From NCBI GenBank assembly GCA_015680905.1, contig CM027377.1, forward strand, positions 60,533,501-60,597,500: a stretch of DNA of 64,000 nt. The letters run 5' to 3'. The translations under genes and the position numbers were made by a program. This stretch comes from Coptis chinensis. Taxonomy: Eukaryota > Streptophyta > Magnoliopsida > Ranunculales > Ranunculaceae. This document shows, piece by piece, positions 1,588 through 58,939 of the stretch (position 1 is its first letter; each line of letters starts with the position of its first letter). Below the pieces are notes generated by a model that saw nothing but the letters and a program-made list of their open reading frames with translations, was not told where the DNA came from and searched no databases.

Positions 1588-2567
1588 ATCATTGAGAAGG
1601 TCTTTACTCTGGAAACACATCAATGTTTTATCTTTGGTGCAAAATATGAGATTAGATAGTGACTTGCCAGAGAACGTGTTGTTCTCCAATTTCTTGATGG
1701 ATGTATTACTTAATTTCTTGAAAAAAATAATGTTTTTTGCTGACCATTTTAAATTATACACAATCACTCATCTCATATGCTCTCATTTGAAATTTTCAGG
1801 TTAGAATGAAACCAGAAGAAAGTGTTCAATTGCCGTCAGAGATTCAAAATTGTAGCAATCTTCATGACTTGCTAAATAATGTATATCCCGGCCTAAAGTG
1901 GGGCGATGAAGTCGACCCAAATTATTTGACCGAGTGGACTATCCTTTCAGCACGCAACGATGATGTTAACACTATAAATGAAACTGCACTAGATATGTTT
2001 CCTGGGGAAGAAATTGTTTGCTTAGGTGCTGACAAGTTAGGCGCTGCCAGTGTTGTTGATAGTGGAAATGCAAATAGCTATCCGACAGAGTACTTGAACT
2101 CACTCGATCCTTCTAGGTTGCCTCCATTCAAGCTTACTCTCAAGAAGGGATGCCCAGTAATGTTGCTGAGAAATATAGCACCAACAGATGGACTTTGTAA
2201 CGGCATGCGCCTGATGATTGTGTGCACAAAGCCACATGTGGTGCAAGTTCTAATCTTAACTGGAGAAAAAGCAGGGAATGTACGCTTTATCCCGAGAATA
2301 TCATTAACGCCTTCGACTAATGAAATACCATTTCAAATGACCAGACGACAGTTTCCAATTCAATTGTCGTTTGCAATGACGATAAACAAATCACAAGGGC
2401 AGTCTGTTAAGTACGTTGGTATTGATTTGCGAAACCAGGTATTTAGCCATGAACAATTATATGTGGCGTTATCAAGATGCACTTCTTCAAAACGAATCAG
2501 TGTCATCCTCCTTTCTGATTCTTCAAACCACACAACTAATATCGTGTATCCTGAAGTCCTACTTTAG
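1588..2567 (+). pseudogene. Helitron helicase, C-terminal part
   Basis: This is the 3' end of a Helitron RepHel gene (the PIF1-type SF1 helicase half). The first exon (1588-1702) reads the LLWKHINVLSLVQNMRL segment that follows Walker B in these proteins. A GT-AG intron (1703-1799, phase 0) follows. The second exon (1800-2567) is open to its stop and ends in NIVYPEVLL. Visible helicase motifs are [12 protein letters not shown] and the motif-VI-like YVALSRCTS. The same intron position and the same ending occur in the second Helitron copy at 38490-38597 and 39352. The Rep half is missing because an LTR element interrupts it at 1587. About 295 codons are uninterrupted, so this copy decayed less than the one at 34.8-39.4 kb. 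No Helitron 3' hairpin was found downstream. Confidence 0.85.
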
Positions 2568-17510: not shown

Positions 17511-17852
17511 GTTCTCAGCTTCTTCAACCTCTTCAACCTCTACAAAATTCAAAGTCCTATCAAAATTCTCAGTTATCCATGTTAAAAATAAAGACAAACT
17601 CCAAAACAAGAAAGAAAAAGATCTTGATAACATACTGCTGCAATGCAAGCAACCATGATAGGACCAAGAATTCTTTCAACTCTTGGATATAGAAGAGTTT
17701 GAGAGATTAGAAGTCCAGCACCTAATAATAGATAAATAAGTAAGTAACACTACCACGTGCACAAGAAATATCACTAAATTCACATATTTGTTTGATTATC
17801 TGCTTTAACTGACTCCTTTTCTTTCCAGGCTTCCAGTAGTATTCTGTTCTAC

Positions 17853-19383
17853 ATGATTTCGGTTGACGAGAATTTATCCAGCAGAAAGCGATGGACACCA
17901 ACAACAATCCAACTTGAAAAATTGCATCAAGTATTTGATCAATTCAATGGAAGTCCAAATAAAGAGATAATTAACAATTTGAAAGCTGAACTAAATCAAC
18001 ACCGTAATGTTTCAGAAAAAAACATAGTTACTTGGTTTTGCAACATGCGTGCTAACTTGAAAAGAAAAGCACTCATTAATGCAGAGAAAGATTCGGATGA
18101 AATTCAAGTAGAGATTCAAATTTCTCCAAAGAAGACCAAGCTTAATAATATGGAAGAAACTTCTGGTGACATTGTTCCTTCACAAGAAAGTATGTCTTAA
18201 CTTACAACAATTCTGACAAGTACTTTATATATTCATCATACTAATATTACTCTTAAATTGCAGGTCAACATCAAGTATCAGTTAGAAAAACAACAACTAC
18301 AAAGTCTACCCCAGTCAAAAGAAAACAGAGGAGGAAAACACAGAAGAGAAGTTATAAATCTAATCGTCTTAGTAGAATGAAACATTTTGGTAAATATTTT
18401 CTTCTTATGTATTCAATTTATTGTTCTTATAGCATCAAATACTTTATTAAATGACATATTATTATTTTTTAAACAGTATCTATGCCCGGAACAAGTGAAG
18501 AAGAAGCTAAAATAAATAGAGCTAAACGAAAAGAGATGCTGAATTTGAAGAGCATTGGAAACGATAATTACATTGACGATGAAAGTGATGATGATTACCT
18601 ATCACAAATGAGTGGATCAGATTCCGACATTGAAGTGGACAATAAAACTGAAGTTTCCATTTCACGTGGAATAGATGTCTTACTTAAAAGTAATTTTCTT
18701 ACATCAATGTTTTATATTCTTATTATAATTAAATTATTTAATTTTAATTAACTTTTTGCCTTATAGGAAGTTGTTTTAAGCCTTTGGATTTTGGATGTCC
18801 AACATCCATATGTTCTCACTGTGGAGCTATTGTCTGGTACGAAGAAATGAATGATAGGAGCAAAAAACCTATTAATCCTAAATTCTCCATATGTTGTCAG
18901 AATGGAAAAGTTCAATTGCCTCTTCTAAAAGATACTCCATAATTTTTGAAGAATCTTTTGGATTGCAATGGAGGGTCAAAATCGTTAAATTACATAGAAA
19001 ACATCAGCATTTACAACTCAATGTTCGCGTTCATATCTACTGGTGGACAAGTTCAGAGCTCAGTTAATGATGGAAATGCACCCTTTGTTTATAAAATAAA
19101 AGGGCAAAATCACCACAAAATTGGAACATTGCTTCCATCTGAAGGAGTACGTCTAAGGTTTGCACAGTTGTACATACATGATACTAAAAATGAAGTCACC
19201 CACAGGTTGAACTCTCTTAGTAAGAAAATTGTTAAGAGGAATCCAAAATATGCTTTAGATTCTAGCATTGTTCAAGGATTGATAAATATGTTGAATGTTA
19301 CCAACGAACTCACCAAGACTTATAGAATGGCAAGGGATAGATTTAAAGAATGTCATGATCTTGCAAACCTAGAATTGAAATAA
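17853..19383 (+). pseudogene. WOX13-type homeodomain fused to Helitron replicase N-terminus
   Basis: Four exons (17853-18189, 18264-18389, 18477-18689, 18767-19383) join through three short GT-AG introns of 74, 87 and 77 bp, all in phase 1, keeping one frame. Exon 1 encodes a homeodomain: RKRWTPTTIQLEKLHQVFDQ, FNGSP and helix 3 NIVTWFCNMRANLKRK, closest to the WOX13 clade. Trp48, Phe49, Asn51 and Arg53 are kept, but position 50, usually Gln, is Cys. Exon 2 is Lys/Arg-rich, like a nuclear signal; exon 3 is acidic. Exon 4 is the region before the Helitron_like_N domain: CSHCGAIVWYEE, FSICCQNGKVQLPLL, GQNHHKIGTLLP, FAQLYIHDTKNE. One stop codon (18940-18942) lies in exon 4, and the frame ends at 19381 before the HUH domain. 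The Helitron copy at 34.8 kb has no homeodomain. A captured DNA-binding domain is the best reading. Confidence 0.75.
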
Positions 19384-21956: not shown

Positions 21957-22600
21957 TCTTTGAAGGTTATGCTCTTACATGGGAATTTGAATATTTGGGC
22001 AACATGGATATGTTTCATAAGACCTTAACCAATATGTTTGCGAAGCGGCTTGGGAATGTTACAAACAAAATTGAAGGGCATGTATCAAAGGTAAACAGTG
22101 ATCCTTATGTCACTGTTTGAGTGGCCAATGCTGTCGTCAGCAGAACTTACGTTATTAGTAATAACGATAACCCAGTTTGGACACAACATTTTAGTGGTCC
22201 TGTTGCGCATCACGCTGCAGAAGCGCATTTTGTTGTTAAAGACAGTGATATTGTGGGGTCCCAAGTTATTGGAGTCGTGGCAATCACAGTAGAAAATATA
22301 ATATCAGGAAACAAAATTGAAAGATCTTTTCAAGTCCTTAATATGTCAAATAGGAAGCCATGTAACCCTGGAGCTTTTACACAGGAGTTCTAGGTACATA
22401 CTTCCCTCAGACAAGGAGGGAAGCTAACATTATACAAAGATGCCCATGTTCCTGACGGTTGACTTCCAGCTTTGAAGCTCGAAGGTGGGGTGCCTTATGA
22501 GTACGGGAAATGTTGGTATGACATATTCAATGCAATTAGTCAAGCCAGGCGCTTGATTTATATTACTGGCTGGACAGTGTACCACAAAGTATGATTAATT
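21957..22600 (+). pseudogene. Phospholipase D delta-like gene fragment (C2 domain and start of catalytic region)
   Basis: The frame reads a short start (MLLHGNLNIW), NMDMFHKTL, SDPYVTV, then VANAVVSRTYVISNNDNPVW, VAHHAAEAHFVVKDSDIVGS, then KLTLYKDAHVPDG, GKCWYDIF and ARRLIYITGW. This is the Ca2+-binding C2 domain and the run into the first half of a plant PLD of the delta group, which hydrolyses membrane phospholipids to phosphatidic acid. At least four in-frame stops occur (for example after SDPYVTV and after GAFTQEF), and neither HKD active-site motif is present. Length is about 210 of some 860 residues. No intron is seen, which may reflect a long first exon or a processed copy. Confidence 0.8.
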
Positions 22601-22965: not shown

Positions 22966-24237
22966 ATGGATAAGGTAAACTATTTCTTTTCCAGTATCTT
23001 ATTTAATAATTTTGTTGATTTCTCTTTTATGATTCAACTGATGATAAAAAAACAATAATAATAATAATAATATTAAAGTTTAAACACATGAGATATTAGC
23101 GTAAGCCTGTAACGGTTTGTTTTTTATGATTCTTTTAATTCAAAATTATATTGAACTTAAGACCTATATTAGTGTAACAACCACTCACTATTAACTGTTC
23201 CTGGAACCCCTCTTACCCCTCCTCTTTATAATTTTTCTTAATATTGTGAAATCAGTGGGACTATGGGAGAGACAAGTCTCGAGTTGAAGCTATTGAGTCA
23301 ATCAATCCAACACGACAATTATTGATGAAATTATATGAAATATAAGAGCAGACCTAAGGAGAACATATCAACTTTCAAATCATCCATATGCTTTAAAATT
23401 TATTTCAAGGGGGAAAGGTGTGTGTGTATAAGGTACGGTATAGTATATATATGTAACTAGAGTATAAGAAAATGCATGTTTTTATATCAAAATTATGTAA
23501 TGCTGGAACCAAGTTTAGTGGTATATATATACCTGCACTTATTCGCTATAGCCCACTTTCACACACATTTGGTATCCTCCCACAAAGCCTACAAAACAAT
23601 AAAAGATCCATCAATAAAACAAAACCTAAAATTTGCATGTTCTAAAAATACCAAATTACTATATGCCCTGACAATGGTGAGATTGTATATTTCTGGATTA
23701 TATAAACTAATTTAATTTTTAAAATGCAGCTCATGGAGTATGAAACCAAACACAAAATTTCACTCAAGACAGCGTTGAGGGAAATTCTAATCAAGGAAAA
23801 AATTCAGGGAGAACCAGTTTACATATCAAAGATTGAAAACAACCGATACGCTGCAGATGTCATAATAGATTTGCCGATAATGAGAGAAATCTTCAAAAAT
23901 CCGAATTATCCTATAAGCCAATCATTTCCGGGGACGTATCAAACTAAGAAAGTGGACTCAAAAAATGCGGCTGCAGGAAACGCTATCTGCTTTCTACAGC
24001 AGATCAATATACAAATTTGAGGTTTTAGACGTCAACCACAAAGAAGTCATTACTAAACGTGAAGAGCTACATGAAGCAAATACTAGAGAAAAACAACTTC
24101 ATCAATATATTGAAAACTTGAGAAAAGAAAATGCCTATTTGAAGTCAATAAATGAAGCATTGCTTATAGGAGGACCAAATTGGGATATGGACTACCTAAG
24201 CATCCCAAATAATTCATCAGATTTGGATGAGGATTAA
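22966..24237 (+). CDS. dsRBD-like small protein, paralogue 1
   Basis: A short first exon (22966-22974, MDK) meets a donor GTAAAC; the acceptor at 23729 opens the main exon in frame (LMEYE). Residues about 10-98 have the double-stranded-RNA-binding-domain pattern: a helix (LKTALREILIKEKI), GEPVY, three strands (RYAADVIIDLP), a loop (FPGTYQT), then KKVDSKNAAAGNAICFLQQ, which resembles the KKxAK-AA helix that grips RNA. A linker EVLDVNHKEV and a coiled coil (REELHEANTREKQLHQ, IENLRKENAYLKSINEA) follow, ending in an acidic tail. The linker and coiled coil are in the +1 frame relative to the dsRBD (junction near 24017), so the copy is shifted by one base or uses an unrecognised splice. Of the four copies this one best keeps the RNA-contact residues. 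Function is inferred; the fold assignment is by pattern only. Confidence 0.6.
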
Positions 24238-24959
24238 CGTAGTGTTTTTCAAGCTGAATTCTATATTGAATGAGGATTAGCACAGTGTTAGATCCATCAA
24301 ATTTATGTTTTTGTTTTTTCAATTTGAATTATCTATAGTTCATCATAACTTAATGAAATATTTATTTTAGGACATATATAGCGCCTCATTGATGGACGAC
24401 AAGTATTAAGTGTGTCAATAACAGATCAAAAGTCACAAGAATAAAAAGTCAAACAACAATAAGAAGAGAATATGACAGAGTGGCAACATTATTGATTAAA
24501 CTAGACTCGACCAAAGTAGAGAACGTTGTGTAGATAAAACCCAACGAGAAAGGAAATAGAAAATCTTACAGTGAAGAATACGTAAACTAGCAAGCACTCT
24601 CTTTGGGCATTTCTACAAGGGCGAACACTGCTAGGTAAATTTGTAAAATAACACACTCACTCTCTCAAGTATAGATCGAGAGTAAGACCAAATTGAAAGG
24701 AAATAACCTATTGTCAAGGCATATGCATTTTGTTAAGTGGGTTTCAATGGTCACAAATACGTATCCTGCAACCACAGAAGTTTAAGCTGAGGGGTTGGGG
24801 AAAGACATTGCTTGAGCTACACAGTTCAAACAATACTCAGAGGAATCACAACACAGGAAACGGAAACAGCTCAATACGAGAAGAAATAGCATAGTTATAT
24901 AAATAGGTAACATTCGAAACTGACACCTCACAAACGGTTTCATCAGCTTTTTACCACCT

Positions 24960-25066
24960 CTCAGAAAAACGATGCTTACAGTTCTCATGAAGATAAGCAA
25001 TTCCACGAGCTGAACAAGCAGCAACTTTAGACGTGGTTCCCCATTCCATAACAGGCCTCCCCTAGC
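24960..25066 (-). pseudogene. PERK-type receptor kinase fragment
   Basis: The minus strand reads GRPVMEWGTTSKVAACSARG followed by IAYLHENCKH, the segment just before the catalytic loop in proline-rich extensin-like receptor kinases (usually SARGIAYLHEDCHPRI). Frame and similarity stop before HRD. About 35 residues only, with an acceptor-like TAG upstream. A captured exon scrap. Confidence 0.6.
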
Positions 25067-25859
25067 CTGAAAAATGTGAATGACAAAATTAAGAGAAAAG
25101 CTAAAGATACAATTCTTGAGAACATATCCACATAATCAGATACATATCTTACCATGAAGATTGGAGCAATTTAGTTGAAAGGAAGCTGCGTGGGAAAAAT
25201 AGGTAGCAATTCAAATTTGAATTGAATTTGAGATACAATACCCACTTAAAACATATGTTATAATTTGTTCGTCCCAGGCCCAACAGTAATGGTATACTTA
25301 TAGGTTTCTAAACCCAATAGCTTCTACCTATTTTTTTTTTAAAAAAAATCTAATTTAAAGTAAGGCGATTTAGCTTTAGGTCGTCCCAATAATATGGGTA
25401 TTTGCATTGGACCAAAGTTTTATGTTTTTTAGCTTTAGGAAACCCTATCGTTAGTTAACGATTCATTTACCAAGTTTGACCATCTATTGTGGTGTGTCTG
25501 GTGTTATGCCCTTTCAAAATGCAACAACTACCCCTCACACGTTTTGCACGTACCCACACCATAAAACTCAAAAACCAAATTTCAAAATACCTGACACATG
25601 TTATAATCCATGCTTCTAATAGAGTGGAGGCTGCAAAAAAGGAGAACCTCGCTATTCCAAAATATCAAAATTTAAGAGATATACAGAACTAAAAACATAC
25701 GAAAAGTGAACTTCCAATCACTTAGTAAAACATAATCTATTAACCTAAAAAAAACAATTTAACTACACATATCGAAAAACCAGGTAGCCTATTTTTTTTC
25801 CTCTTCTCTATTATTTACAATTATTTATTGACTTCATTTTATTATGTATATTGCAGATA

Positions 25860-26293
25860 ATGGCATATGAAAATTACAGCTTATGTAAAAAAAAATGCTA
25901 AAGGAAATTCTAGAAGCAGGACTTAACATTCAACAAGATCCAGTCTACAACACAGAATTAGAGAGCGGACGATTCAAAAGCACTGTAACATTAAAGGTAC
26001 CAAAAGACTTATTCTTTAACAATGAAGACGTCATAGTTAAAGAAATTGATGGAAACCCAACATATTCTGTTGCAAAAGCAGAGGATTCAGCAGCTTTTCA
26101 TGCAATACAGTTTATAAATGATGAACGTGATATGGAAATTGAAGACTTCAATTTCAAAGAACTTATGAAGAAAAGAATAGAAGTTGAAGAGAAACAGAAT
26201 CAACTCGATATCCTCAAAAATATTATGCTAGATTGTTTGGTTGATGATAAACACAACAAAGATAAAATATATTATCTGGAAGAAAAAAATTAA
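25860..26293 (+). CDS. dsRBD-like small protein, paralogue 2
   Basis: An acceptor (TATTGCAG, about 25856) precedes ATGGCATATGAAAA, which parallels the start of paralogue 1 (ATGGAGTATGAAAC). The main frame (25895-26293) reads MLKEILEAGLNIQQDPVYNT, strands ESGRFKSTVTLKVP, and the last helix AKAEDSAAFHAIQFI. It then has the shared linker EIEDFNFKELMKK and a charged coiled coil to a stop. The upstream ATG and main frame differ by one base at an A9 run (25887-25895), a likely slippage or assembly error site. The basic residues at the RNA-contact helix are mostly lost (KAED for KKxxK), so dsRNA binding is less likely than for copy 1. Confidence 0.6.
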
Positions 26294-26910
26294 AGGAATG
26301 AAGGGAATGGAGAGTTCCATAATAAAGAAAAGAAAACCATGAGGATTAGTACTTTAATAACAAAACTTTATTATGTTGGTCACATAGTATTTTTTTAATG
26401 GCCAAGGTTTAACGCTTCTTATTTATGAAAGTTTGTAACTATTGAGTCCATTAATTTTTAGTTTAAATTTATAATATTAGCACGCTCGCTTTTCCAATTT
26501 GACTACTTTAAGTTTTATTGTGTTCGATATCGAAAAAAATATAAGTCATTTGTCACCTTTGGAGTAGGTATTCGTATCATAACATTATTTCGTTTGCTGA
26601 CCTTCTAAAAGAAGTGAGTAATTGTAAATAAGTGGATGCCCTGAACATTCAACAATGTAAATACTGGACAGTGTCTTCCAAATATTAATGAGATAGTGAG
26701 TTCTTCTTTCAGTATTCTAATGCCAAATACCAGATGTTTTAAAAAAAAAAAAAAACACCATTGGGAGTGCGAAAGAATTAGGCAGTCAGCAACATTCTTA
26801 GATGTCTAGATTTTTTTAGTATTATCAGGGCAGTTTTGCAACTCCATTATATAAAGTCTCCTAAATTACCACAAGAGCACAATCGATTATGAAAATGGTG
26901 AAACCTCATG

Positions 26911-27294
26911 TTATCCCTCAACAATCTCTCTCCTCATAATCAGAGACGCACCACACATCACAGTGTGGAAATCCTCACACACTCTGAGTTTCTTTACAAT
27001 CCTAATGGGGATTCCAGCAGTCGTAGTAAATAGTCCAAATGATGTCTGTAAAAGATCCTCTAGTGCTTCCTTGATCTCTTTTGACTTTGGGTGCGTAATG
27101 TCACCAACAAATAACTCATCCTCTGCTTCCATTAAGCTGTAGCCAGGGTTCTTTCTGACTCCTTTTTCTCTAATAAGGATTTCCATGGATCCGACAAGCA
27201 CCAAAGAGTGCTCCACACACGCCTCAATAGGCATCGTCGCTGCAAGGTTTAAAGCTTCTTCCAAGTGTCCAACACGACCAAGAAGATCTACCAT
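26911..27294 (-). pseudogene. PPR protein fragment, E/DYW subclass
   Basis: The minus strand reads MVDLLGRVGHLEEALNLAAT, MPIEAC, EKGVRKNPGYSLMEAEDELF, GDITHPKSKEI, then GIPIRIVKKLRVCEDFHTVM and REIV. This is the last PPR, the E motifs and the start of a DYW domain of an organelle RNA-editing PPR protein. Spacing between the PPR and E motifs is shortened, and the DYW end is replaced by a stop after REIVEG. The zinc-binding site CxxCH is altered (CEDFH). A pseudogene inside the dsRBD-bearing element, opposite in strand to its genes. Confidence 0.75.
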
Positions 27295-27369
27295 TACTAC
27301 ATCAAAAAAAACACCAAGAAAATTAATATCTAGATTTTGGGCATATTAGATTTTGGGCACTGCCTAGCC

Positions 27370-27504
27370 AAATGACTCATTCAGACAATCACGACCCAGG
27401 TGGCCAATCTTCCTGCAATTGTTGTATGCCTTATCATTTGTGCAGTTAACACCTATATGGCCAATCTTATAGCAGTTGTTGCAAACCATGAGGTCACCAG
27501 GTGG
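27370..27504 (-). pseudogene. CCHC zinc-knuckle fragment (GIS2/CNBP-like)
   Basis: The minus strand reads CNNCYKIGHIGVNC, a perfect CX2CX4HX4C knuckle, then NDKAYNNCRKIGHLGRDC, a second knuckle whose first Cys is Tyr, then LNE. Order and spacing match plant CCHC proteins of the CNBP/GIS2 type, which bind single-stranded nucleic acid. Only two of the usual six or seven knuckles are present. The surrounding frame is not conserved. Confidence 0.6.
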
Positions 27505-27998
27505 TAGGAATACCAGTGACCGCAATAAGCAGAAAATAAAACAGTCATACCCAAATTTCACTAATCCCACAATATTTAACTAATAAATCATTCATACCCA
27601 ATGTTTCGTTGCCATACCTTTCAGCCTAAAACAAATTAGAATTAGCTTCAAAGGCAATAACAATATGGTCACCCATTCATTTTTACTACAAATGCCACAT
27701 CCATAAAGCAGAGTAATTTTAACAATACATGAATCAAATAAAGTTTTCCAATATTGCCTATCAAATTTTTATAATTATGTCATATCATGTCTAATAAGTT
27801 GATATATTGTTCTAAATATGGATATACAAGAAGCATAAAAGGTACAATTTTTTAAAACAAGTATCTTTTTTTTTTTCCCCTGAATGTGTATTGCTACATT
27901 TAGTTATTTCGATTAAAAAAATAATCTTCTACTTACTACAATGTGAACATAACATTTTTTCTTGGCTATCTTATACAAAAACACATAAAAGGATCACT

Positions 27999-28640
27999 AT
28001 GGAGATGAGAACAGAGCAATATTCAGGAGGGATTGAAGTGTCATTCAAACCTATGCTAGAAGAAATAATGAAAAAGCTAAATCTGGATCAACCTATTTAC
28101 GAAAGTTCATTACATAACGAAATGTACAATGCAAGCATTAGGGTGAGAAATGATGTTGGTGTGGAAGGTGCGTCTGAAATCATAAGTTTTAAAGGAGTAC
28201 CATCAAAATTCATTGAAGAGACTGAAAACACTACAGCAAGACGGACAATTGAATTTACACAAAAAGTTAATGAATTCAAAGTTGTTGACTACAACTTTAA
28301 GGAGTTGAAATATCAAACAACGAACAACAAGAAAGGTACTCAAACAACAAGAAAGAATCGAATTCCTCGAGAAATCAATGAATATCAAACAACGAACAGA
28401 GGCAAGTTTTTTTTATTTAATATGATTTTTCATATGTTATATATCACTAACTTTTTAAAGTTTAGGTTGGAAGAATTGAAGCACGTCGCGGAATATCCAG
28501 TACAGATATTATAAGTATTATTTTAGACAATACCAAACTCATGATCAAGGAGAATAAAGAACGGTACTCGACTCTCAACAAATTCAATAAAAAGGCAAAC
28601 AGATTTAATATTCATATTTTTTTAGTAAATTGTAATTTTT
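27999..28640 (+). CDS. dsRBD-like small protein, paralogue 3
   Basis: Starting at MEMRTEQYSGG (27999), the frame reads FKPMLEEIMKKLNLDQPIYE, strands MYNASIRVRNDVG, FKGVPSKF, a helix ETENTTARRTIEFTQ, and the family linker FKVVDYNFKELKYQ. In the dsRBD frame the open frame continues to 28514 (171 aa). In the +1 frame, as in paralogue 1, a coiled coil appears (LKQQERIEFLEKSMNI), ends in phase at an AG|GCAAGT donor (28402), and joins an acceptor at 28465 to a second exon, VGRIEARRGISSTD onward, to about 28638. The RNA-contact basics are largely lost in this copy. Paralogue 4 follows at once, so the two may be halves of a two-domain gene. Confidence 0.55.
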
Positions 28641-28661
28641 AAGTGTTTTACTAACAATAAA

Positions 28662-29006
28662 TTGATCTATAAATTTCAAAAACTTATCCCTCTAAAATTC
28701 AAAGATATGCTGATGCACTGCACCAAAATATTAAAGATAGATGACCAAGAATTTCTCAATGAAATATTGGGAGAAAATCAATACAGATGTCAAATATTAA
28801 TTGACGTTCCAATCTTTAACATGAAAGACAATCACAAATTCGAAGGAAATTCAACAACTCGAGAAGATTCACAAAATTCAGCATCGAAGAAAGCAATTAA
28901 TTTTCTGCGCAGTGAGATAGGCTTTGAAGTAGTAGACTATAACTACAAACAAATAGAAGAAATTTGCAACAAACTTGAGATTGTAGAAAAGATATTGATT
29001 ATCTAA
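28662..29006 (+). CDS. dsRBD-like small protein, paralogue 4
   Basis: A 114-residue frame reads LKFKDMLMHCTKILKIDDQE, strands QYRCQILIDVPIF, HKFEGNSTTRE, the last helix SQNSASKKAINFLRS, then the shared linker FEVVDYNYKQIEEI and the start of a coiled coil (CNKLEIVEK). The dsRBD-like topology and linker match the other three. It lacks the ATGGA-type leader of copies 1-3 and begins within 40 bp of copy 3's last exon, so it may be a second domain of that gene. The contact helix has TREDSQNSASKK, with basics displaced to its end. The frame is unbroken. Confidence 0.55.
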   Translation: MIYKFQKLIPLKFKDMLMHCTKILKIDDQEFLNEILGENQYRCQILIDVPIFNMKDNHKFEGNSTTREDSQNSASKKAINFLRSEIGFEVVDYNYKQIEEICNKLEIVEKILII

Positions 29007-29390
29007 AGACAATTATAAATAGGGAATGGTAGAGTTATGATTCTCTCTACGTAATTATATGTTCGATCTTGGAGATGAGATGACTTATCAAACATTTTTA
29101 TATATATGAAATCATATTTTTAGTAATAAACGTATTCATTTTTTAGCCAAGATTTTGTGTACAAATGGAGTTTAAAAGCTATCCCCAATCATCAAACCAC
29201 AAGGAAAGAATGACAGGTATCTTTGAAGAGATAAATTGCTCTAATCATATATATTACAAAAATAAAATCAAAGATTAATAATGAATTTTATTAATGTCTG
29301 CTGCTCCCTTTTAATTTGAATGAGTGATTAAAATAATTTTCATATGTTATAGCTATGCATAGTTATTAATATTTTTTAATATAACAGCAC

Positions 29391-29418
29391 CCGTTCGTAG
29401 AACGGATTCGAAAACTAG
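29391..29418 (+). other. Helitron 3' terminus: hairpin, 9 nt, CTAG
   Basis: Perfect 6-bp stem CCGTTC/GAACGG with a 3-nt loop, spacer ATTCGAAAA, then CTAG followed by T, as expected for insertion between A and T. The same architecture and 9-nt spacer occur at 40229-40255. Confidence 0.85.
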
Positions 29419-34809: not shown

Positions 34810-37334
34810 GATGTTATGTCTGATTACATAGCAGATTCCTTTAAGAAGACGAGGTCAATGTATGAAGTTGGGTCCTCTTCATCAATGTATGATATCTCTC
34901 ACAGAGAAAACCAACCTCCAGTCACAAAAGATGTAACAATGCAAAGTTATGAGGATAACACTATGTAAGTCAAGTGTTTAAATTTTCACTCTTATGTTAG
35001 GTTTTAACATATCGTAAAGCGTGATATATCATAGGTCTATTTTTGCAGTGATCATGATATGACTGGATTTGACGAAAGTGAAGAAGAAATTCTTAATCCT
35101 CATAGTGGCCATGCGCTTCCAGTTCCAAATTGCCGTCACTTTTTAGGAAAGATGGATGTTCTTTGTCTATTTTGTTCGGCCCTTCATTGGAAAGATGAAC
35201 AGTTATCGAAATCAAGGCGCAATCGACCTTTATTTGGAACTTGCTGTTTACAAGGAAAAGTTAAGCTACCGCTTCTTTCTCCACTGCCTCCGGCACTTAA
35301 ATCTTTATTCGAAGGATCTAATAAACGTGCAAGATTATTTCGTGAGCAGATTCGGCAATACAACGTGTGTAATGCCTTTACCAATCTTGGTTGCAAATTT
35401 AATGATCGTGTGTTACATGGACGTGGTCCTACCTCATTCACTGTTCATGGAGAGTTGCAGCATTAAATCGGTTCATTGTTGCCTGATCCAGAGATGGAAC
35501 CTAAGTTTTCACAGCTTTATATTTATGATCCCCTAGCTGCTTTGGATCACCGCCACAATCGTAATCCGAATTTGTCAAGGGAAGTGTTGAAAACTGTATA
35601 AGAAACTCTTCTGCAGACCCACAAGTTTCGTGATATTTATAAGCAAGCATTTGAGGTTTTAACTGAAAATGCTTCTGAGAATAACAATGTTCCGGTCCAT
35701 CTACACTATGATCCACGTTCGGATAGACGAAGGTACAATCTTCCGACAACTGATGAGATTGCAGTGATATTGCCTGGAGATGGGAGTAAGGTTGATGCCA
35801 TGCGTGATATTTTACTTCACTTGAGAGGATGGCATGAGTTGGAACGGATAAGCGAATGTCATCCCGCTTATTTGCCTTTGCATTATGTTCTTTTGTTTCC
35901 TTATGGGGATTTGGGTTGGTCACCTGATTTGAAGTTGTAGGACATCAAGAGAAATGCTCCAAGCAATACAAGACTCACCCAATTATTGTATTACGCCTAC
36001 CGTTTGTTTAAACGACCCATAGAGTACTCATCCATCTTGCTGGGGTGTAAATTGTTGCATGAATTTTTGGTTGATGCTTGGGCTGCATATGAACAGAACC
36101 GGCTGCGATACATTAGACTAAATCAAGACACCATCCGTTCGGATGTGTACAAGTGCTTGATAGATGTTGCACTTGAGGGATTAAGTCCTGATCAAATTGG
36201 CCAACGGTTCATTTTGCCTTCCTCGCATGTTGGAAGTCCAAGGCACATGTACGAGATTTTTCAGGATTCAATGGCTATCACCCGGCACTATAAGCACCCA
36301 GATATTTTTCTTACGGTGATTGCAAACCCTAATTGGTAGGAAATTAAAGATGCGCTCAAAGAACACCAAACTTCGACACTTCGGCCTGAAATAGTTGCAT
36401 GGGTATTCGAGCTGAAACGAAAAACAATTATGAAAGAAATCTTGAAGAATGATATCTTCGGCTGGGTGGTTGCATATGTCTATACCATTGAATTTCAGAA
36501 GCGCGGTCTTCCACACATGCATTGCCTTTTATTTCTCGCGTATGATGACAAGATCTGAAACAGTGAGCAAGTGGATAAATTTGTATGTGCTGAATTCCCA
36601 GATCCCGACACCCACCCTGCATTGTTTGAAACAGTGAAGAAGTGCATGGTTCATGACCCCTGTGGTGATCGAGATCCGAGTACTTCATGTATGGAAAATG
36701 GTTGATGCACCAAAGGCTATCTAAAAGAGTTTGTGGAGGAAACAATTATGGATAAAAAATGGTACTCCATTTACCGAAGGCGCGACACTAGCAAGAAATA
36801 TTTTGTGAAGAGGAAGAATAAAATGGTTAAAGTTGATAATGGAGATGTTGTTCCCTACAATGCATATCTGTATGAAATGTTTGACTGCCATATCAATGTT
36901 GAAGTTTGTGCATCGTGTCAAGCTGTTAAATATATTAACAAGTACATCTACAAAGGCTATGACAAAGCAACAGTGGTGGCGGCAGGAACAAATGATGAGA
37001 TTCAGCAATATATCGATGCAAGGTATATTGGACCAACAGAAGCTGCATGACCTCTATTTCAGAATCCAATGCATAAAGAGTTTTCAAGTGTCCAACGATT
37101 GGCGCTTCATTTGGAAGGCATGCATAGGGTTGTTTTCAATAGCAAAGAGCCCATGGATGCAATTCTTGCCCGAGCCAGAGACCAAACTTCAAAGATCGTG
37201 ACTTTCTTTTAAGCGTTGTCTTTGAAGATCCAGATGCACGAGCATATACCTATCAAGAATTTCCACGACACTATGTTTTCCACAAAAACTCTCAAGAGTG
37301 GACTCCTAGGACTCAGGGACCTTTCATTGGTAGG
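34810..37334 (+). pseudogene. Helitron replicase (HUH endonuclease) half of RepHel
   Basis: An N-terminal exon (MSDYIADSFKKTRSMYE) meets a donor at about 34974 and an acceptor at about 35048. The next part has a zinc-binding region, CLFCSALHWKDE ... GTCCLQGKVKLPLL, then IGSLLPDPEMEPKFSQLYIY and the Helitron_like_N block. The HUH-type motif reads GLPHMHCL (36505-36528). The catalytic two-tyrosine motif reads KYINKYIYKGYDKA (about 36927-36968). The enzyme would nick and join DNA strands in rolling-circle transposition. About eight in-frame stops (for example 35464-35466, 35938-35940, 36338-36340) and at least one frame change make it non-functional. Its N terminus differs from the homeodomain-bearing replicase at 17.85 kb. 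Confidence 0.85.
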
Positions 37335-39352
37335 ATGTATTTTGCAAGCCCTAATGCCGGGGAGAGGTTTTATCTACGCTTGTTACTTACTGTTGTAAAA
37401 GGGCCTACCTCCTTTGCATATCTTTATAAAGTCGGTGATACCGTGTACAACACATACAAAGAAGCATGTTTTGCCCATGGGCTGTTGGAAGCTGATGATG
37501 AGTGGATACAATGCCTAGAAGAGGCGGCGATAATGAAAACTGGATATCAACTGCGGAGGTTGTTTTATGTAATTCTTTTAGAGTGTCATCCGTTACGACC
37601 AGATCTACTTTGGAGCAAATTTGCATCAAGTATATGTGATGATTTTGGACACTGGCTTCGAACAAAACATGGCATCCCAGATCCAACTGATGAGCAAATA
37701 ACAGATTACGGCTTATATCTGGTGGAACAAATCCTTTTAGAATTTGGGAAGACATTGGAAGATTTCCCGCCCATGCCAAAGCAAAAAGAGGATTGGAGCA
37801 AAATTGTTGGCAATAGGCTCATTTGGGAGCAACGCCAACTTCAGCATGAAGGCATAGGAGAAGAGACTGCAGTTGATGTGAGTCGTCTTAATGACGAACA
37901 ACTTCATGCTTACACTGTTGTGACTGATTCAGTATATGGTGACAAGGGCAAACTTTTCTTTTTGAATGGAGCAGCTGGTACAGGGAAAACTTTTTTGTAT
38001 AAAACAATTGCAAAGGCCTGCAGCATGGGTCTTATTGTCATCATGGTGGCATCATCGGGAATTGCATCTTTGTTATTGTCTGGTGGACGCACTGCTCATT
38101 CTACATTTAAGATTCCAATTGATGTGATGGATACCACTTTTTGCGGCTTTGCTAAACATTCCGACCTTGCTAACCTATTTAAAGAAACAAAACTAATTGT
38201 TTGGGACGAGATGCCCATGCAACATAGATACTGTGTTGAGGCTGTGGATAGAACACTTCAAGATATTTGCGGAAACAAGAAGATATTTGGTGGTATCACT
38301 ACAGTTCTTGGTGGTGATTTTCGACAAACACTACCTATTATACCGTTAGGCCAGAGAGAGCAATTTGTTGGTGCATTACTACGGCGCTCTTTCCTTTAGA
38401 GTTATTTAGAAGTTTTGCACTTGGTACAGAACATGCGGCTTGAAATGGCGGAGTTCGAGAATGTCGAATTCGCTGATTTTTTGTTGGAGGTGTGCTATTA
38501 ATGCCTTCTAATTAGAATGTTTTTTCTCTATCAGTTTCATATATAAACGAACTATTTTAGAAACTAATGAATTCATTTTTTGTTTTGATTCATTTAGATT
38601 GGTTCGAATCCCAAAGAATGCGTACAATTGCCGAATGGAATCTGCAAGTGTACCAATATCCAAGAACTCATCTTCTTTGTCTATCCCCAATTGGATGTTA
38701 TGGACACACCGTCTCCAACTTTCTTAACTGATCGTACTATTCTTGTTGCCCGTAATGATGATGTGAGTGCAATTAATGAGGTTGCACTGAATTTGTTCCC
38801 TGGTGAAGCGCTCGAGTATTTGGCTGCAGATAAAATTATCGAAGATGATATTGATAATCCCAGTGGGGCTCACTATCTCATCGAGTTTCTCAACTCCCTC
38901 GACCTTACCACCTTTCAATCTCAAGTTAAAACCTGGATGCCCTATAATGTTGCTCAGGAACATAGCACCTAAAGATGGCCTTTGCAATGGGACACGACTT
39001 ATGGTGCTTCAATGTGCGAGTAAAGTCCTTCAAGCCAAAATTTTGATCGAGAGAAATTCGGAAACCGGTACTCATCCCAAGAATATCTCCGGCTCTCTCA
39101 AATTCAGAGTTGCCTTTCAAACTATCAAGGCGACAATTCCCTGTTCGACTAGCTTATGCCATGACAATTAATAAGTCGCAAGGTCAGTCAGTGAAATATG
39201 TTGGCATTGATTTGAGGACACCGGTTTTCAGTCATGGATAACTCTATGTGGCCATGTCCAGATGTACTTCTTCAAAAAGAATATCTGTTTTTCTTCCACC
39301 TAATGCAAAAAATTGTATCACAAATGTCGTGTACCCAGAAGTTCTTCTCTAA
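37335..39352 (+). pseudogene. Helitron helicase (PIF1-like) half of RepHel
   Basis: The longest frame of the window (37335-38399) carries Walker A GAAGTGKT (about 37970-37993), then [20 protein letters not shown], the Walker B region [12 protein letters not shown], and [12 protein letters not shown]. After a stop at 38397-38399, the QNMRL segment continues to a GT-AG intron (38490-38597). The last exon has a further frame break near 38950 and ends in NVVYPEVLL at 39352. The intron matches the one in the copy at 1703-1799. The enzyme would unwind DNA 5'-to-3' for rolling-circle transposition. Broken by a few stops and frame changes, but less so than the replicase half. Confidence 0.9.
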
Positions 39353-44329: not shown

Positions 44330-45205
44330 CTATATCTGCAGCTTTCTTTAAATTACTCAACAAAAGCATCCAGATTTTTTGCAATGGATGCAACATTACC
44401 ATTGACAATAGAAGCAACTTTCTTGTTATTCTTGATTTCTTTGCTTTGCTTCCTGCTAATAGACCTCTCCAAAAAACCTTCAGTAATGCTAAGGTTATAT
44501 TCCGAATAAAATGAAGGGCCAGTCTTAGAAGTTGAAAGAAAATGAAGCGTTGAGGGGGTTGATGGTAAGAAATCAAAGCCTTCTAGATCTCCTGATCTTG
44601 CTTTCTTTCTTGGTATTGATGCAAGAGTTTCGTTGCGTAACTGAGTTCTTTGCCACTTTGGCGTATCTTTGACTGGGTTATAACAATCTTGCCATGTCCT
44701 CGCGTCTCCACCCGCTTGGAGGTTGTTCTTTAAGCTTTCTTAGTATGACATGATATTTGTCCAAGAACAGGAAAAAATGCTCCCAATGTTGTCAGACTCC
44801 CTTCCACTTGCGGTTTTTGTTAAAACCTTAAATTTCACACATCCTAGCCATAATTCGTTCCCAATAAACTTATCCTGATTGATCATTTCCTACTATTGGA
44901 TATTCTCCAATCTCAACTCACGCTCTAGTAAGAGCAATGTTTTCTTCATTTGTCCAACTTTGGCACCTACCTTGCTTTTGTGACATTGAGAGTGTAGTTG
45001 TGTGTGAGTTGAGTTGTTTTCACACATCCTAGCCATAATTCGTTCCCAATAAACTTATCCTGATTGATCATTTCCTATTATTGGATCTTCTCCAATCTCA
45101 ACTCACGCTCTAGTAAGAGCAATGTTTTCTTCATTTGTCCAACTTTGGCGCATACCTTGCTTTTGTGACATTGAGAGTGTAGTTGTGTGTGAGTTGAGTT
45201 GTTTG
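44330..45205 (-). pseudogene. PIF/Harbinger-type Myb-like (ORF1) gene fragment
   Basis: The minus strand reads MSQKQG, then SWTNEENIALTRA, EIGEDPIIGNDQSG, VYWERIMARM, the trihelix/Myb-like domain of plant proteins linked to PIF/Harbinger transposons. Downstream are KLKEQPPSG-type linker residues (about 44735) and a lysine-rich SKAKKSR region. Stops interrupt the domain at the W after ALTRA and elsewhere. The N-terminal domain is present twice because of a 185-bp tandem duplication. Confidence 0.5.
44836..45205. repeat. 185-bp tandem duplication
   Basis: Units 44836-45020 and 45021-45205 differ at only about five positions. The unit starts CACACATCCTAGCCATAATT and contains the whole Myb-like segment, so duplication came after the fragment formed and is recent. 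Confidence 0.95.
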
Positions 45206-50300: not shown

Positions 50301-50514
50301 AAATTAACAAATAATGAGACTATATTACAACGACATAAATAACTGAAAGATGTTGAGTCACTATGACTCGGATTTTTCGTAAGAACTCTCCAAAGAATGG
50401 GTATAAAGCTCAAGTCTCACGGGCTAAGTCTAAAAAAAATATACTTCCAGTTTACTAGGGGTTAAATCTCTCTTCTAGCAAAAGTACACAAAACTGACCA
50501 AGTACTATGGTGGT
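47400..50514 (-). mobile_element. 3' LTR and 3' internal part of a second Ty3/gypsy family
   Basis: Read on the minus strand, a purine-rich tract at about 48975-48990 precedes the LTR start TGATAAGTGCTC (ends at 48972 on the plus strand). The LTR extends to about 47400 (end approximate). The internal part (48973-50514) resembles the corresponding non-coding 3' region of the neighbouring family (for example ACCATATGCAACAAG and CTCGTGAG blocks), but the LTRs differ. It is interrupted at 50515 by another LTR element, so it is older than that insertion. No gag or pol is visible here. Confidence 0.65.
48508..48625. repeat. 41-bp tandem repeats with internal palindromes in an LTR
   Basis: Units start GCGTCTGGATGCACGATCCA at 48508, 48549 and 48590 (last one partial). 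Each has CGTCTGG facing CCAGACG or a close variant, so each unit can fold. The G+C content is well above the surroundings. Located in the U3 of the minus-strand LTR, where enhancer repeats are common. Confidence 0.85.
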
Positions 50515-51574
50515 TGATAACCCGTAAAAACAATAGAATCCTAAATATTAATGCTACAAGAACACTAATACGTAATCCTACCGTTCTTACGTTTAAATCA
50601 ATTCTTCTTACTCTCAAAACATAATCATGCAATACAACGAGTAAGGATTTCGTTCCACTCTTAAACCTCAAGACTTAAACAAATTCAACTAATCAAACCC
50701 AAAGGGAACAATGGTGAGAGTAATGATTTGATGTGAAATTTCTATTCTACCATTCCCAACAATTGAATCTAAACAAGACATAATATAAAGATTTGAACTT
50801 TATGAAATTTAACTAATCTAAATTAAACAATAAAAAAAAAATCTAATTAATAACTAAGCATTGAATAACAAGTAAATAATGAAATTAGATCTAAGAATTG
50901 TAATTGACAAATCGAAATTGAATCAATAACAACTATTTTATTATCTAATTCAAGGGAGAACAATCATTCAATACTAAATTTAAAACAAGAATAAAAACTA
51001 ATTACTTTACTCTAAAACTAGATCTAGAACTAAGGTTTAATGGAGGCTAACTAATCTAGGTCTAACTTTTTCTAACCCTAAACTCCATTAACATTAGCTT
51101 CCTAACCTAACTGCCATTAACAAAGAATGAAGCTTTTGTTTTTATACATCCAGATCCAAAAATCGTGCATGGGCTTGGAGCCATGCTTTGGGCCAGAGAA
51201 TCAGGCCCAAAACCCAATTCTTTCGGTCCAAAAAGGCCTCTTCAGCTGCAGTTCGCTTCAACAGACTTTTCGTCCACTTCTGCTCCTCTGATTGGGTCAA
51301 GGCTCAGACCATTGGAAAGCTCTTTCCGAGCCGGTCGTTTTGACATAAGGTAGGCCCAATTCCGAGGTCTGAGTCCAAAGATATGGCATTCGGAAGTTCT
51401 TCTCGATTTGCTGCTCCTTTATCTCGCTAAAAGGGGCGCAGTTCCGCACATAATGGACTTTGAAGCCTGAAATGCATAAAACACGTATCAGTATTAACTC
51501 TTACTTATTATTCACATAATTGGTCTAACAGTATGATTATTAAGGGGTTAAAACTACAGTTTTGGGCTCTTATC
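50515..51574 (-). mobile_element. LTR (3' LTR of the minus-strand gypsy array)
   Basis: Bounded by TGATAACCCG (50515) and GGGCTCTTATCA (51574), 1,060 bp. Immediately right is the purine-rich tract of the element (reverse complement of ACCACCCCAAAC), as expected for a 3' LTR read on the minus strand. The left flank is GTGGT and the other flank should lie beyond 64000. Confidence 0.85.
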
Positions 51575-54500
51575 AAACCACCCCAAACAAAGATTTTGCT
51601 TGTCCTCAAGCAAAGATGAGAAATTAGAATAAGTGACCAAAAATGGAGTTCTAACTACTCTCGTTTTAGCTGAGTGCGATTGCATTGACCATATGCAACA
51701 AGGCCTTAAACCACTAGGAATTCCCCTAGTGGACGAAGTTATAGCCTCGTGAGAGTTTTCCAATGAAGGTACTCACAAACTTCGCGTCTATACTACAACG
51801 ACTTCGAAATAAAACTATTGTTTTCTCATTCATGTCTCAACTATCTATACATCTCACTAGCAAATACATAAGAATAACCCAAATGGAACCCTAAGCTAAT
51901 ATATGCATAATAATCAATCATCTATAATAAACATATAACAATGAGTAATACTATGAAATGTAATAGCAGGTCCGTTTTCAAAACTTCGGATTAAGCGTCC
52001 TTAAGTAGGTCCTCACATAAATGTCAAGACAAAAATCACTCGATTTTTCGCTCAAGTTTTCGCTACTCTCCGGTGTGCGGTGGGCACACTTTACCTTACA
52101 ATCTCAATGACACACAAGGAAGCCTGAGTCGATCAAACACAACCGCCACTTACTATCACACTAACCTATTCCTAATCGAGCTAGAGGTCTTTTATTAGGT
52201 GTTGCGGGGATTAGGAGATGGTTTAAGAAGGAAGGAAATGGATATACAAAAGGACAAGTCTGAGATAATAGAGTCTTCATATTATATAACTTAGAGAAAA
52301 CCTTGTTATTTTCTTTTGCTTCTATACTTTGTTTCCATCATTAGCCATATTTTTCTTTTTCTTTTCTTTGGCTTTTGACTCCCTTTTATTCTATTTTTGG
52401 AGTTTTTTATTTATTTCTATTTTTCTTTTTCTTTTCTTTTCTTTGGATGGAAACTTCTTTTCTTTTTCTGAAGCAACTAACTAATTTTTGTTTACACAGG
52501 TTTTTCTCTTCTTCTTTCTTCACTCATTCTATTCTCAGACTTATTCTAGATTGGGTAAGTTGAATTTTTTATTTTGTTTTGTTTTTGTAAAAGGGTAAAG
52601 GAATTGTGGTTTATGGAAGGCTAAAGAAAGGCTCAGAGGGGCGACTAGCGGAAAATAATTTATAGGTTTGAATTTCTGGCTATATCGATCCAAAGAGGGC
52701 CTAAATTCTCGCTTAGGATATGGCATAGTGATCAAGCAAGTGGACGTGTGATTTCTCTATCGGATTTTACTTCTCCCTTGTGTCATTTTCAAATATTTCG
52801 CTCATATAAGGCTTTAGGCTATATTCTCACAGGATTTGTAGAATAAGTACTCTAGCCTAGATTTGAAACTTACTACTAACAATCATAGATACTCATGTAA
52901 TATATTTATAGAGAGATGCAAAGATTATTACCTACATATTAACCTAAGTTTCTAACAATTATTCTCGATGCAAAAGCTTCATTGAGACTTCTAGATTGTT
53001 AAGAGCATAGAAAGAAAACAATACCAATATTCCTAAGTGTATAGCATAAACTTATTTATTTATATTTTTGAAATTTTTAACTTGAAAACAAATGCATATT
53101 ATACATATCTATATCCTAACAGATGCCTTTTAATTACACGTGATTTCTATGCCCCCCAAACAAGAAGAATGCTTTGTCCTCAAAGCATTTAAATAAAGAG
53201 GGTAGAAAAATACCATGGAAATGCGTGAAATTCGGAACATCCGCAAAAAAAAGGTTAGAATATACTAATATAGGAAATAAAACCGACGAACTCTATAAGA
53301 GTTCCACCCATTATGGGGTTAAGCAATTAAATTGCTTGGGACATAAGCGGACACTAACCGAAACTAAAAACTTACCTCCATTCGTTTTTTTCGTCATCCT
53401 CCTCTTCTATAAAGAAGTGAGGTTCCTTCGCATCCTGCCATGCCATTATAATTTGCCAAGCTTGCCGCCATTTATCATCTACGGATCCTAACTTGTTAAA
53501 GCCACTTGGTCGGATGGGGTGTAAGGGGTGCAACGATGAGGTTGTATCCTCCACCCTCGCCAAGTCATTACCGCGGAAAGATCGAATAATAGAATTGGTG
53601 GGTCTCACAATGTCGACCCCAACCCAAATCAGTGAAACGGGCACAAAACAGGGAAGAAACATAGTATAATACGGCAAACTAATATAGGCATAAGAAGATA
53701 CTTATGCCTCATGCTATGGGCTCGTGCTAAACTAGACATTAAGGTCTTAGGAAGGTCATATAGCAGCGTTCCTCGCTAAAGCAAGGAAAACATCGCAAAG
53801 TGGCATCATTCGCGAGAAGAAAAATGCCACTCCTTTTAATATGTTTAGCATGATAACGAACATTACCGTATCACATTAAGGGACAAGCTACCAAGGGCTA
53901 CGTTATATGTCCCTTGGTCCTCTACACGGAAAATCTTGGGACCCATAAGCCTCATGCAAAAGTCATAAGTGTAGACATGCATATTATCTACCCAATAGCA
54001 TCATGGGTCTTGTATTTCACCGGGCATGGCAAGTCCAAGAACAAATGCTAGCAAGAACCATAAGCGGTTCCCGAAAACTACGCGTGTGATCACCTCACAA
54101 AACCAAGCACCATAAGTAGTGCTTTGCAACAAATCTTTTGAAAGACTGTTCCGGTATTATTATAGGAGATGTCATCTCGAACTACGCTCCGAACAGCTCT
54201 GCGAATGAACGGGAACAACCCGCTGAAAACTGGAATTTTTCTGGTCGGTCGACGGAATCGGCCAGTGGCGCTTCAACTAGAAGGGCTGGCGAGTCGCGCT
54301 CGCGGTATTTAGAATCGGTGTTTGTTTGAGTCGCCGAGTCGTTGGTATGGGCGAGGGATGGTCGCACTCTAGGTCCGAAAGGCTGAGGGTGGTCGCGGTT
54401 CGACAAAATTCTTCAAAAAAAAGTAAAGGCAGGCGGCAGCGCTCGACAAAGCCTTGGCCGGCCGTAGTACCGAAACCGGAGTTTAGAGCAAAAAGAAGGT

Positions 54501-54687
54501 AAAACTTGGAGTGGAAAGCGTTTTTTTTTTTTTTTTTTTTACAAGGGAGTGAGGTGGGGGTAAGAATAGGAAGTTTAGTGATCAAGCATGGAAAAACCAA
54601 ACACCCCACCCCCAAACAAATTTTTGAAAACAGGTTTGTAAAAATTTGTTTTAAAACGTGGGTCTTTTAAAGTCAGATTCCCTAGAC

Positions 54688-55410
54688 TTAAAGTGATATA
54701 TATGTATTTACATGCAGTTTCCCATATATCAATAATCTAAACAATTGTGGATCTTTCCATAAATAGTTAACATGGAATGCACCATCAAACAGAATTAAGC
54801 TCCAAGATTTCCTATGACGTAGCTTAGTGGAATGAGAGTAAAGCCTTATAGATCTAAAACCTAATCGAGCATACAGTTTCTTCTTTGTCCTCCTACGAAG
54901 GGAATGCCAAGTAAATGAACATGAGAAAATTGATGGTTGTGGAAAATACGTAGGATGTGGATAATTTTGAGAAGGGAAAAATGGAAAAAATGAAAAAGTG
55001 TTCGGTGGCTTGTCCTTGGGTGTTACTTCTTCACTAGTTGGTTTTAGATAGTTATGAAGCATAGGAGAAACACCAAGGTCAAGTACAAACTCAATGGTTC
55101 TTTGAAAAGGTAGAGGGCGAGGAACATTCATGATGGAAGGTGAATGAGTGACATGAGGATGTGAGGTGGGTGAATGGTGTTCAACTAGTGTTCTTAGGTC
55201 TATATCATCAGAGGCCTTGAGATATGCAAGACATTCCTCAATAGGTGGGTAAGAAGAATCACTGGGATAAAGGGCAAAAAATTCTTCTTCCATCATGGCG
55301 TCAAGAGATGAATGGATGTCAATAGGAGAGAACTCAAGGAGTCGAAGGAAATCTTCCTCGATGTTATCTACGCCTAGGGAGTAGAAATTGTGATCCTTGT
55401 CTTCTTCCAT
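54688..55410 (-). CDS. 240-residue frame of unknown function in the gypsy element
   Basis: A long uninterrupted frame starting MEEDKDHNFYSLGVDNIEED, rich in acidic residues at first and Pro/Ser/His in the middle, ending basic. No domain recognised. A related segment reappears in the next element near 63700-64000. It lies after the protease, where many plant gypsy elements have a poorly conserved spacer before reverse transcriptase. Treated as part of a retroelement fossil. Confidence 0.4.
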   Translation of the reverse strand: MEEDKDHNFYSLGVDNIEEDFLRLLEFSPIDIHSSLDAMMEEEFFALYPSDSSYPPIEECLAYLKASDDIDLRTLVEHHSPTSHPHVTHSPSIMNVPRPLPFQRTIEFVLDLGVSPMLHNYLKPTSEEVTPKDKPPNTFSFFPFFPSQNYPHPTYFPQPSIFSCSFTWHSLRRRTKKKLYARLGFRSIRLYSHSTKLRHRKSWSLILFDGAFHVNYLWKDPQLFRLLIYGKLHVNTYISL

Positions 55411-58937: not shown

Positions 58938-58939
58938 TT

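Follow-up and report, generated by a model that had tools for sequence, protein, structure and literature searches.

Within Dicers and DRB proteins, domains with the fold of the double-stranded RNA-binding domain (dsRBD) that show little or no RNA binding already have a known role as interaction modules. In plants, the passages of PMC7827160 drawn on here describe the Dicer domain DUF283 as a partner of HYL1 and DRB4 with at most trace binding of double-stranded RNA (dsRNA), in DCL4, and those of PMC8138440 describe the sequestration of endogenous inverted-repeat (endo-IR) dsRNA precursors by DRB7.2 together with DRB4. For domains that do hold dsRNA, PMC11309768 names three regions of contact, namely a glutamate in helix 1, a GPxH motif between strands β1 and β2, and a KKxAK motif at the start of helix 2. 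Here we describe an array of four related small frames, referred to as copies 1 to 4, in a 64,000-nt window of Coptis chinensis contig CM027377.1; all positions are those of this window.

The four copies are homologous and old, their domains are open, the dsRBD fold is best seen in copy 3, and the sites of RNA contact are altered. The explanation that we put forward, as a tentative first choice to which we give rather less than even weight, is that the array is a tandem family, now decayed in part, of protein-interaction modules with the dsRBD fold, whose link is probably to Dicer/DRB complexes; both the binding of proteins and any partner are inferred. Complete decay of all four copies is nearly as likely.

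Homology and age of the array

An earlier note on this DNA had reported four related plus-strand frames in tandem, and this was borne out by two kinds of comparison. None of 500 shuffles matched the score of the true alignment in any of the six pairs (z 7.2 to 14.8). Profiles built from three copies recovered the held-out fourth among 2062 six-frame segments of at least 20 amino acids (aa), with E values of 3.2e-12, 1.2e-12, 4.2e-13 and 1.1e-11 for copies 1 to 4, respectively. In a profile search of the window for further copies no fifth rose above noise; the tail of copy 1, in its own frame, gave E 0.015 in the same search.

The copies are old and their synonymous sites are saturated. A blastn comparison of the window with itself (E up to 1e-4) returned no match between copies. 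Over the six pairs, identity at codon positions 1, 2 and 3 was 0.418, 0.590 and 0.352, against 0.290, 0.315 and 0.299 when codons were re-paired at random 1000 times (z 6.7, 14.2 and 2.9), and an identical codon was used at 59 of 138 shared degenerate residues, where codon usage alone predicts 60.5. Because the synonymous sites are saturated and the protein is still recognizable, the divergence has evidently been a long one under purifying selection. This is selection in the past, as read from the sequences. The dN/dS near 1 that the earlier note had named as refuting its reading was not seen, the protein being conserved and the synonymous sites saturated; the Nei–Gojobori (NG86) ratios themselves (0.26 to 0.57 in four of the six pairs, with dS above 1.2, and saturated in the other two) were not relied on.

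Fold of the domain

The order helix-strand-strand-strand-helix, ascribed earlier to all copies, was examined in AlphaFold2 models of copies 2 and 3 built on four-row alignments, the best of five models being used for each. That of copy 3 (predicted local distance difference test, pLDDT, 73.2; predicted template modelling score, pTM, 0.66) shows this order, with helices at residues 13–23 and 69–88 and strands at 30–36, 39–47 and 58–62; two further strands lie in the poorly modelled linker. That of copy 2 (pLDDT 65.5) departs from it, running helix-strand-strand and then helices, so that the third strand is absent.

When the copy 3 model was compared with the PDB by Foldseek, 27 of the 30 top matches (E 0.0065 to 0.078) were by title dsRBD, DRB, RDE-4, MLE, DGCR8, DCL or Dicer entries, the remaining three being two DHX29 complexes and one mitoribosome. 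At rank 1 stood 8igd_B, from the DRB7.2:DRB4 complex (E 0.0065, probability 1.00, template modelling score 0.75 on the target), followed at rank 2 by 8z49 (DRB7.2) and at rank 16 by 9k9p (DCL4 dsRBD2 with the C-terminal domain of DRB4), and several Dicer entries were among the matches. Copy 2 had entries with such dsRBD-protein or Dicer titles at 9 of its first 11 and 11 of its first 30 places, and in every case E exceeded 0.6. Against a viral library, one match, an unnamed protein, passed 0.001, and three DRBM-named proteins were among the 50 matches listed.

A sequence link came from profile–profile comparison with 32 RNase III dsRBDs. The score of 19.3 was reached by none of 300 column shuffles (largest 17.2) and compares with 9.1 for the reversed profile, and the alignment is colinear across the whole domain (columns 13–86 with 5–72); the HH-suite probability was only 6%. 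Without copy 1, 2 or 3 the score fell to 12.7–13.8, within the range of the 300 shuffles, and without copy 4 it rose to 21.1. A hidden Markov model (HMM) of RNase III dsRBDs did not detect the copies among the 2062 window segments, ranking copies 3, 1, 2 and 4 at 12th, 24th, 54th and 217th, and the sequence link therefore rests on the profile comparison.

Membership of PF00035, the family that the earlier note had named for this fold, had to be rejected: none of the four copies matched it, even with E up to 10, a level at which most weak matches are removed by filters. Of the Pfam families with a dsRBD fold, Dicer_dimer/DUF283 (PF03368) alone responded, below its cut-off and only with copy 2 (E 0.0058, 17.1 bits against a cut-off of 23.7). 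Two other sub-threshold Pfam matches were set aside, one of copy 2 to the MTR4 beta-barrel (E 1.1e-4, 23 bits against 26.4), which covers residues 31–108, partly linker and tail, and was taken as spurious, and one of the copy 1 tail to DUF5094. Searches of PDB sequences with copy 1, copy 3 and the profile gave no match.

Taken together, the copy 3 model with its Foldseek matches and the RNase III profile comparison support membership of the dsRBD fold superfamily, best in copy 3, more weakly in copy 2 and by homology in copies 1 and 4, with PF00035 silent. The empty PF00035 and PDB sequence searches, the low ranks given by the RNase III HMM and the weak fold matches of copy 2 would also suit some other small alpha-beta fold that merely resembles a dsRBD; we hold this to be very improbable in view of the titles that head the matches of both modelled copies and of a colinear profile match that no shuffle equalled.

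RNA-contact sites and predicted function

Two sequence features that the earlier note had taken as common to the copies hold for three of the four each. The proline-tyrosine-type turn after helix 1 is present in copies 1 to 3 (EPVY, DPVY, QPIY) and replaced by QEFL in copy 4, and a helix 2 close to AA..AI.FL is found in copies 1, 2 and 4, that of copy 3 being degenerate (TARRTIEFT). As for the contact regions, the helix-1 glutamate, read by hand, is present in copies 1–3 and missing from copy 4. A complete GPxH occurs in no copy; the β1–β2 connection in the copy 3 model is a two-residue turn, and a gap in the profile alignment makes this loop five residues short of that in RNase III. The KKxAK position, also read by hand, is occupied by KVDSK, VAKAE, IEETE and REDSQ in copies 1 to 4, so that none is complete and copy 1 has lysine at two of the three lysine positions. 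The pattern [KR][KR]xA[EKQ] is found in 0/4 copies compared with 30/32 RNase III domains, a control in which one more basic or Ser/Thr residue was required in front; a loose loop-histidine pattern was found in 22 of the 32 control domains.

Two of the three canonical contacts are thus absent or incomplete in all copies, and dsRNA binding is therefore unsupported in copies 2–4 and only possible in copy 1. Copies 2–4 seem ill equipped to bind dsRNA in the canonical way, and for copy 1 this is doubtful. A rival view sees in the array, at least through copy 1, a true binder of dsRNA by which the precursors of small RNAs are sequestered or steered; it would draw on the basic charge of that copy (Table 1), its two lysines and its helix-1 glutamate, on the histidine kept in the loop of copy 3, and on the placing of DRB7.2 domains, from a protein described with DRB4 as sequestering endo-IR dsRNA precursors (PMC8138440), at the top of the copy 3 matches. 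With no complete GPxH in any copy, a loop five residues short, and copies 2–4 acidic and without the lysine patch, we consider such a binder unlikely.

Our preferred explanation, that of protein-interaction modules, would run as follows. A small gene, probably of flowering plants, was duplicated in tandem long ago, and its product would be one dsRBD-fold domain with a short, conserved linker and a tail that varies. Since the lysine patch and the β1–β2 loop, which grip RNA in other dsRBDs, are here shortened, lost or changed, the domain would most likely bind proteins, like Dicer DUF283 or the interaction domains of DRB7.2:DRB4, and the product would then act on a Dicer-like/DRB complex, modulating it through the occupation or bridging of its dsRBD-type interfaces. 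The locus is by now partly decayed, a frame break or a lost start codon flanking each domain.

A number of observations weigh against this explanation. The third strand is missing from the copy 2 model, and the five models of each copy disagree, with pLDDT of 73, 65, 45, 37 and 34 for copy 3 and of 66, 48, 46, 43 and 42 for copy 2. Foldseek against the PDB never reached E <= 0.001 with either copy, and many of the top entries repeat one protein, eight of them being DUS2 domain entries. The near neighbours also include DRB3 dsRBD2 and RDE-4, which we take to be ordinary RNA-binding dsRBDs, so that the rank of DRB7.2:DRB4 is not specific. In the profile alignment copy 3 has a retained histidine opposite that of the RNase III loop. 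With frames broken next to the domains, it may be that no protein is produced. Finally, MLE domains with an imperfect KKxAK are described in PMC6486548 as still binding RNA, aided by a helix-1 lysine, and loss of RNA binding in the Coptis copies is for this reason a prediction and not proof.

A bolder form of the proposal, which we regard as rather improbable, would have the copies form a plant-lineage-specific family, expanded in tandem, whose stand-alone dsRBD-fold proteins have given up RNA binding, act purely at the protein level as decoys or bridges docking into Dicer-like/DRB interfaces, and diverge fast and locally like conflict genes. A stand-alone, tandemly duplicated and strongly diverged set of such domains would be a natural source of regulators, or of conflict genes, that act on the small-RNA machinery of plants. 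Among the literature titles surveyed there was no plant array of this kind, and absence from print is not claimed; no relative of copy 3 was confirmed in viral and GTDB contigs, both of them non-plant collections.

Gene structure and integrity

The features of the array are collected in Table 1. The linker (E/K)(V/I).D.N.K(E/Q) that had been proposed as common to the copies was found in all four, that of copy 1 in a frame other than that of its domain. The common coiled coil found no support: a crude, home-made heptad score stands out in copy 1 only, being reached by 14 of 500 shuffles compared with 386 for copy 2, 179 for copy 4, and 348 and 257 for two readings of copy 3. In copy 4 a stop follows 16 residues past the linker.

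Table 1. Features of the four-copy array and its downstream flank in the window
Feature	Position	Strand	Basis and remarks
Copy 1 candidate tiny first exon	22966..22974	+	ATG GAT AAG before GT; sequence only
Copy 1 frame	23724-24017	+	Open reading frame (ORF)
Copy 1 dsRBD-fold domain	23748..24005	+	86 aa, net charge +5; leave-one-out HMM E 3.2e-12
Copy 1 linker motif and coiled-coil-like tail	24013..24234	+	Frame differs from domain; heptad score
Copy 2 leader	25859..25888	+	Other frame, after tgcag acceptor-like site; by eye
Copy 2 frame	25889-26290	+	ORF
Copy 2 dsRBD-fold domain	25889..26122	+	78 aa, net charge -4; leave-one-out HMM E 1.2e-12; model pLDDT 65.5
Copy 2 linker (EIEDFNFKEL) and charged tail	26123..26290	+	No heptad signal
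Copy 3 frame	27999-28322 (ORF runs to 28511)	+	ORF, ATG at 27999
Copy 3 dsRBD-fold domain	28041..28268	+	76 aa, net charge -2; leave-one-out HMM E 4.2e-13; model and Foldseek
Copy 3 linker (FKVVDYNFKEL) and tail start	28269..28322	+	Within frame 27999-28322
Copy 3 possible tail pieces, two other frames	28309-28422, 28466-28639	+	Tail membership inferred
Copy 4 frame	28629-29003	+	ORF
Copy 4 dsRBD-fold domain	28698..28907	+	70 aa, net charge -2; leave-one-out HMM E 1.1e-11
Copy 4 linker (FEVVDYNYKQI) and short tail	28908..29003	+	Stop 16 residues past linker
Candidate Helitron 3' end	29389..29418	+	Hairpin (8-base arms, one mismatch), 7 nt, CTAG, T

All four domains are open across 70–86 codons. 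The stop-to-stop frames measure 232, 134, 125 and 104 aa. Ranked by length, each is longer than its counterpart in any of 300 base shuffles of the same 6.2 kb (largest values 154, 101, 84 and 78 aa), and that of copy 3 alone exceeds the longest shuffle frame of all. The frame is broken between the domain and the linker and tail in copy 1, between the leader and the domain in copy 2, and inside the tail, which continues in other frames, in copy 3. The earliest in-frame ATG of the copy 2 domain is at 25895, and copy 4 is without one before 28707, three codons into its domain. By eye, an acceptor-like tgcag stands just 5' of an ATGGxxTATGAA leader in copies 1 (at 23730) and 2, and this common arrangement suggests a conserved intron in the two copies. 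The domains of copies 3 and 4 lie about 0.4 kb apart, and the two copies could form one two-domain gene.

These breaks are the mainstay of the closest competitor to our preferred explanation, in which a dsRBD-fold gene that was once functional has left four pseudogenes and no present product. That is a serious contender, to which we give about a third of our belief: copies 1, 2 and 3 change frame, copy 4 lacks an early start and has a very short tail, and gene fragments lie in the neighbourhood (a DYW piece and a phospholipase-D-like C2 piece flanked by stops). On the other hand, the four domains have stayed open, with stop-to-stop frames that beat the shuffles by rank, and the breaks all fall outside the domains, where introns could account for some of them. 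Should the copies prove dead, the locus would show a small family, possibly related to silencing, in decay amid transposon debris.

Candidate Helitron and neighbouring sequences

As to carriage by a transposon, also raised in the earlier note, one candidate Helitron 3' end lies about 0.4 kb downstream of the copy 4 stop, and no convincing 5' end was found, a 5'-end pattern giving six matches with two or three mismatches where 4.75 are expected by chance. The hairpin and CTAG/T of the 3' end fit the published rule for Helitron ends, as given in PMC6591975. A scan of the window for such ends placed a second one at 33474, likewise on the plus strand, and returned none for the minus strand; five shuffles had 0 or 1 per strand. 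A second end pattern was drawn in part from that same hairpin and does not count as independent evidence. From 21 to 31 kb the repeats are only short and weak (40 nt or less), and no terminal-repeat transposon was found around the array.

Helitron carriage of the array is thus possible and unproven. That the copies are the cargo of a Helitron ending at 29418 seems to us quite improbable: the hairpin end and, upstream on the same strand, an N-terminal fragment of a Helitron transposase (18808–19380, +) with gene fragments between would frame such an element, but the 5' end is unconvincing, such 3' ends number two on the window's plus strand against 0 or 1 per strand in shuffles, and the divergence of the copies, at synonymous saturation, is far older than a recent capture and duplication would allow.

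Other Helitron transposase and helicase remains lie at 1791–2564 (+) and 35035–39349 (+), the region from 35.0 to 39.3 kb containing Helitron_like_N (2e-26) and PIF1 (2.6e-60) in several frames. A homeodomain ORF (17796–18197, +; PF00046, E 6.3e-11), presumably WOX-like and possibly captured or flanking, precedes the transposase fragment at 18808 by about 0.6 kb. The phospholipase-D-like fragment occupies 21960–22600 (+), with stops seen by eye and a C2 domain at 22121–22390 (E 1.3e-7), and a fragment with E+ and DYW deaminase motifs (26914–27345, −; E 1.7e-9 and 4.1e-11) lies antisense between copies 2 and 3. The window also contains pentatricopeptide repeat (PPR) pieces and Sec61, which together with the DYW, homeodomain and Helitron sequences make a flowering-plant source probable. 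Further downstream, a tandem duplication of 187 nt is found at 44833–45204 (97.9% identity), and direct copies of about 4.5–5 kb at 50514–55047 and 58939–64000 are 82–93% identical over four blocks, perhaps representing a retrotransposon with very long terminal repeats; between them lie minus-strand frames (56431–57657) that are gag-like by eye, of which the frame at 56431–56820 has no Pfam match.

Comparison with known systems

The copies share with canonical dsRBDs of RNase III and DRB proteins the helix-strand-strand-strand-helix order, the proline-aromatic turn in three of four, a helix 2 of the form AA..A(I/L)..L and a colinear profile, and they differ in lacking a PF00035 match, in a β1–β2 loop about five residues shorter, in a GPxH that is incomplete or absent and in a KKxAK that is lost or incomplete. 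With the Dicer dimerization domain DUF283 (PF03368) they have in common a dsRBD-like fold, and the little or no dsRNA binding reported for that domain would be a further likeness, and copy 2 matches it weakly; unlike DUF283, they have no attached helicase or RNase III domain, and the match is below the cut-off and confined to one copy of four. For the interaction domains of DRB7.2 and DRB4 in Arabidopsis (8igd, 8z49), identity in the structural alignments is 13–16%, the PDB sequence searches made no connection, and the Coptis copies stand apart as a tandem array with linker and tail. The likeness here is one of fold only, yet these domains, in which the dsRBD fold has an interaction role, are the best structural matches of copy 3.

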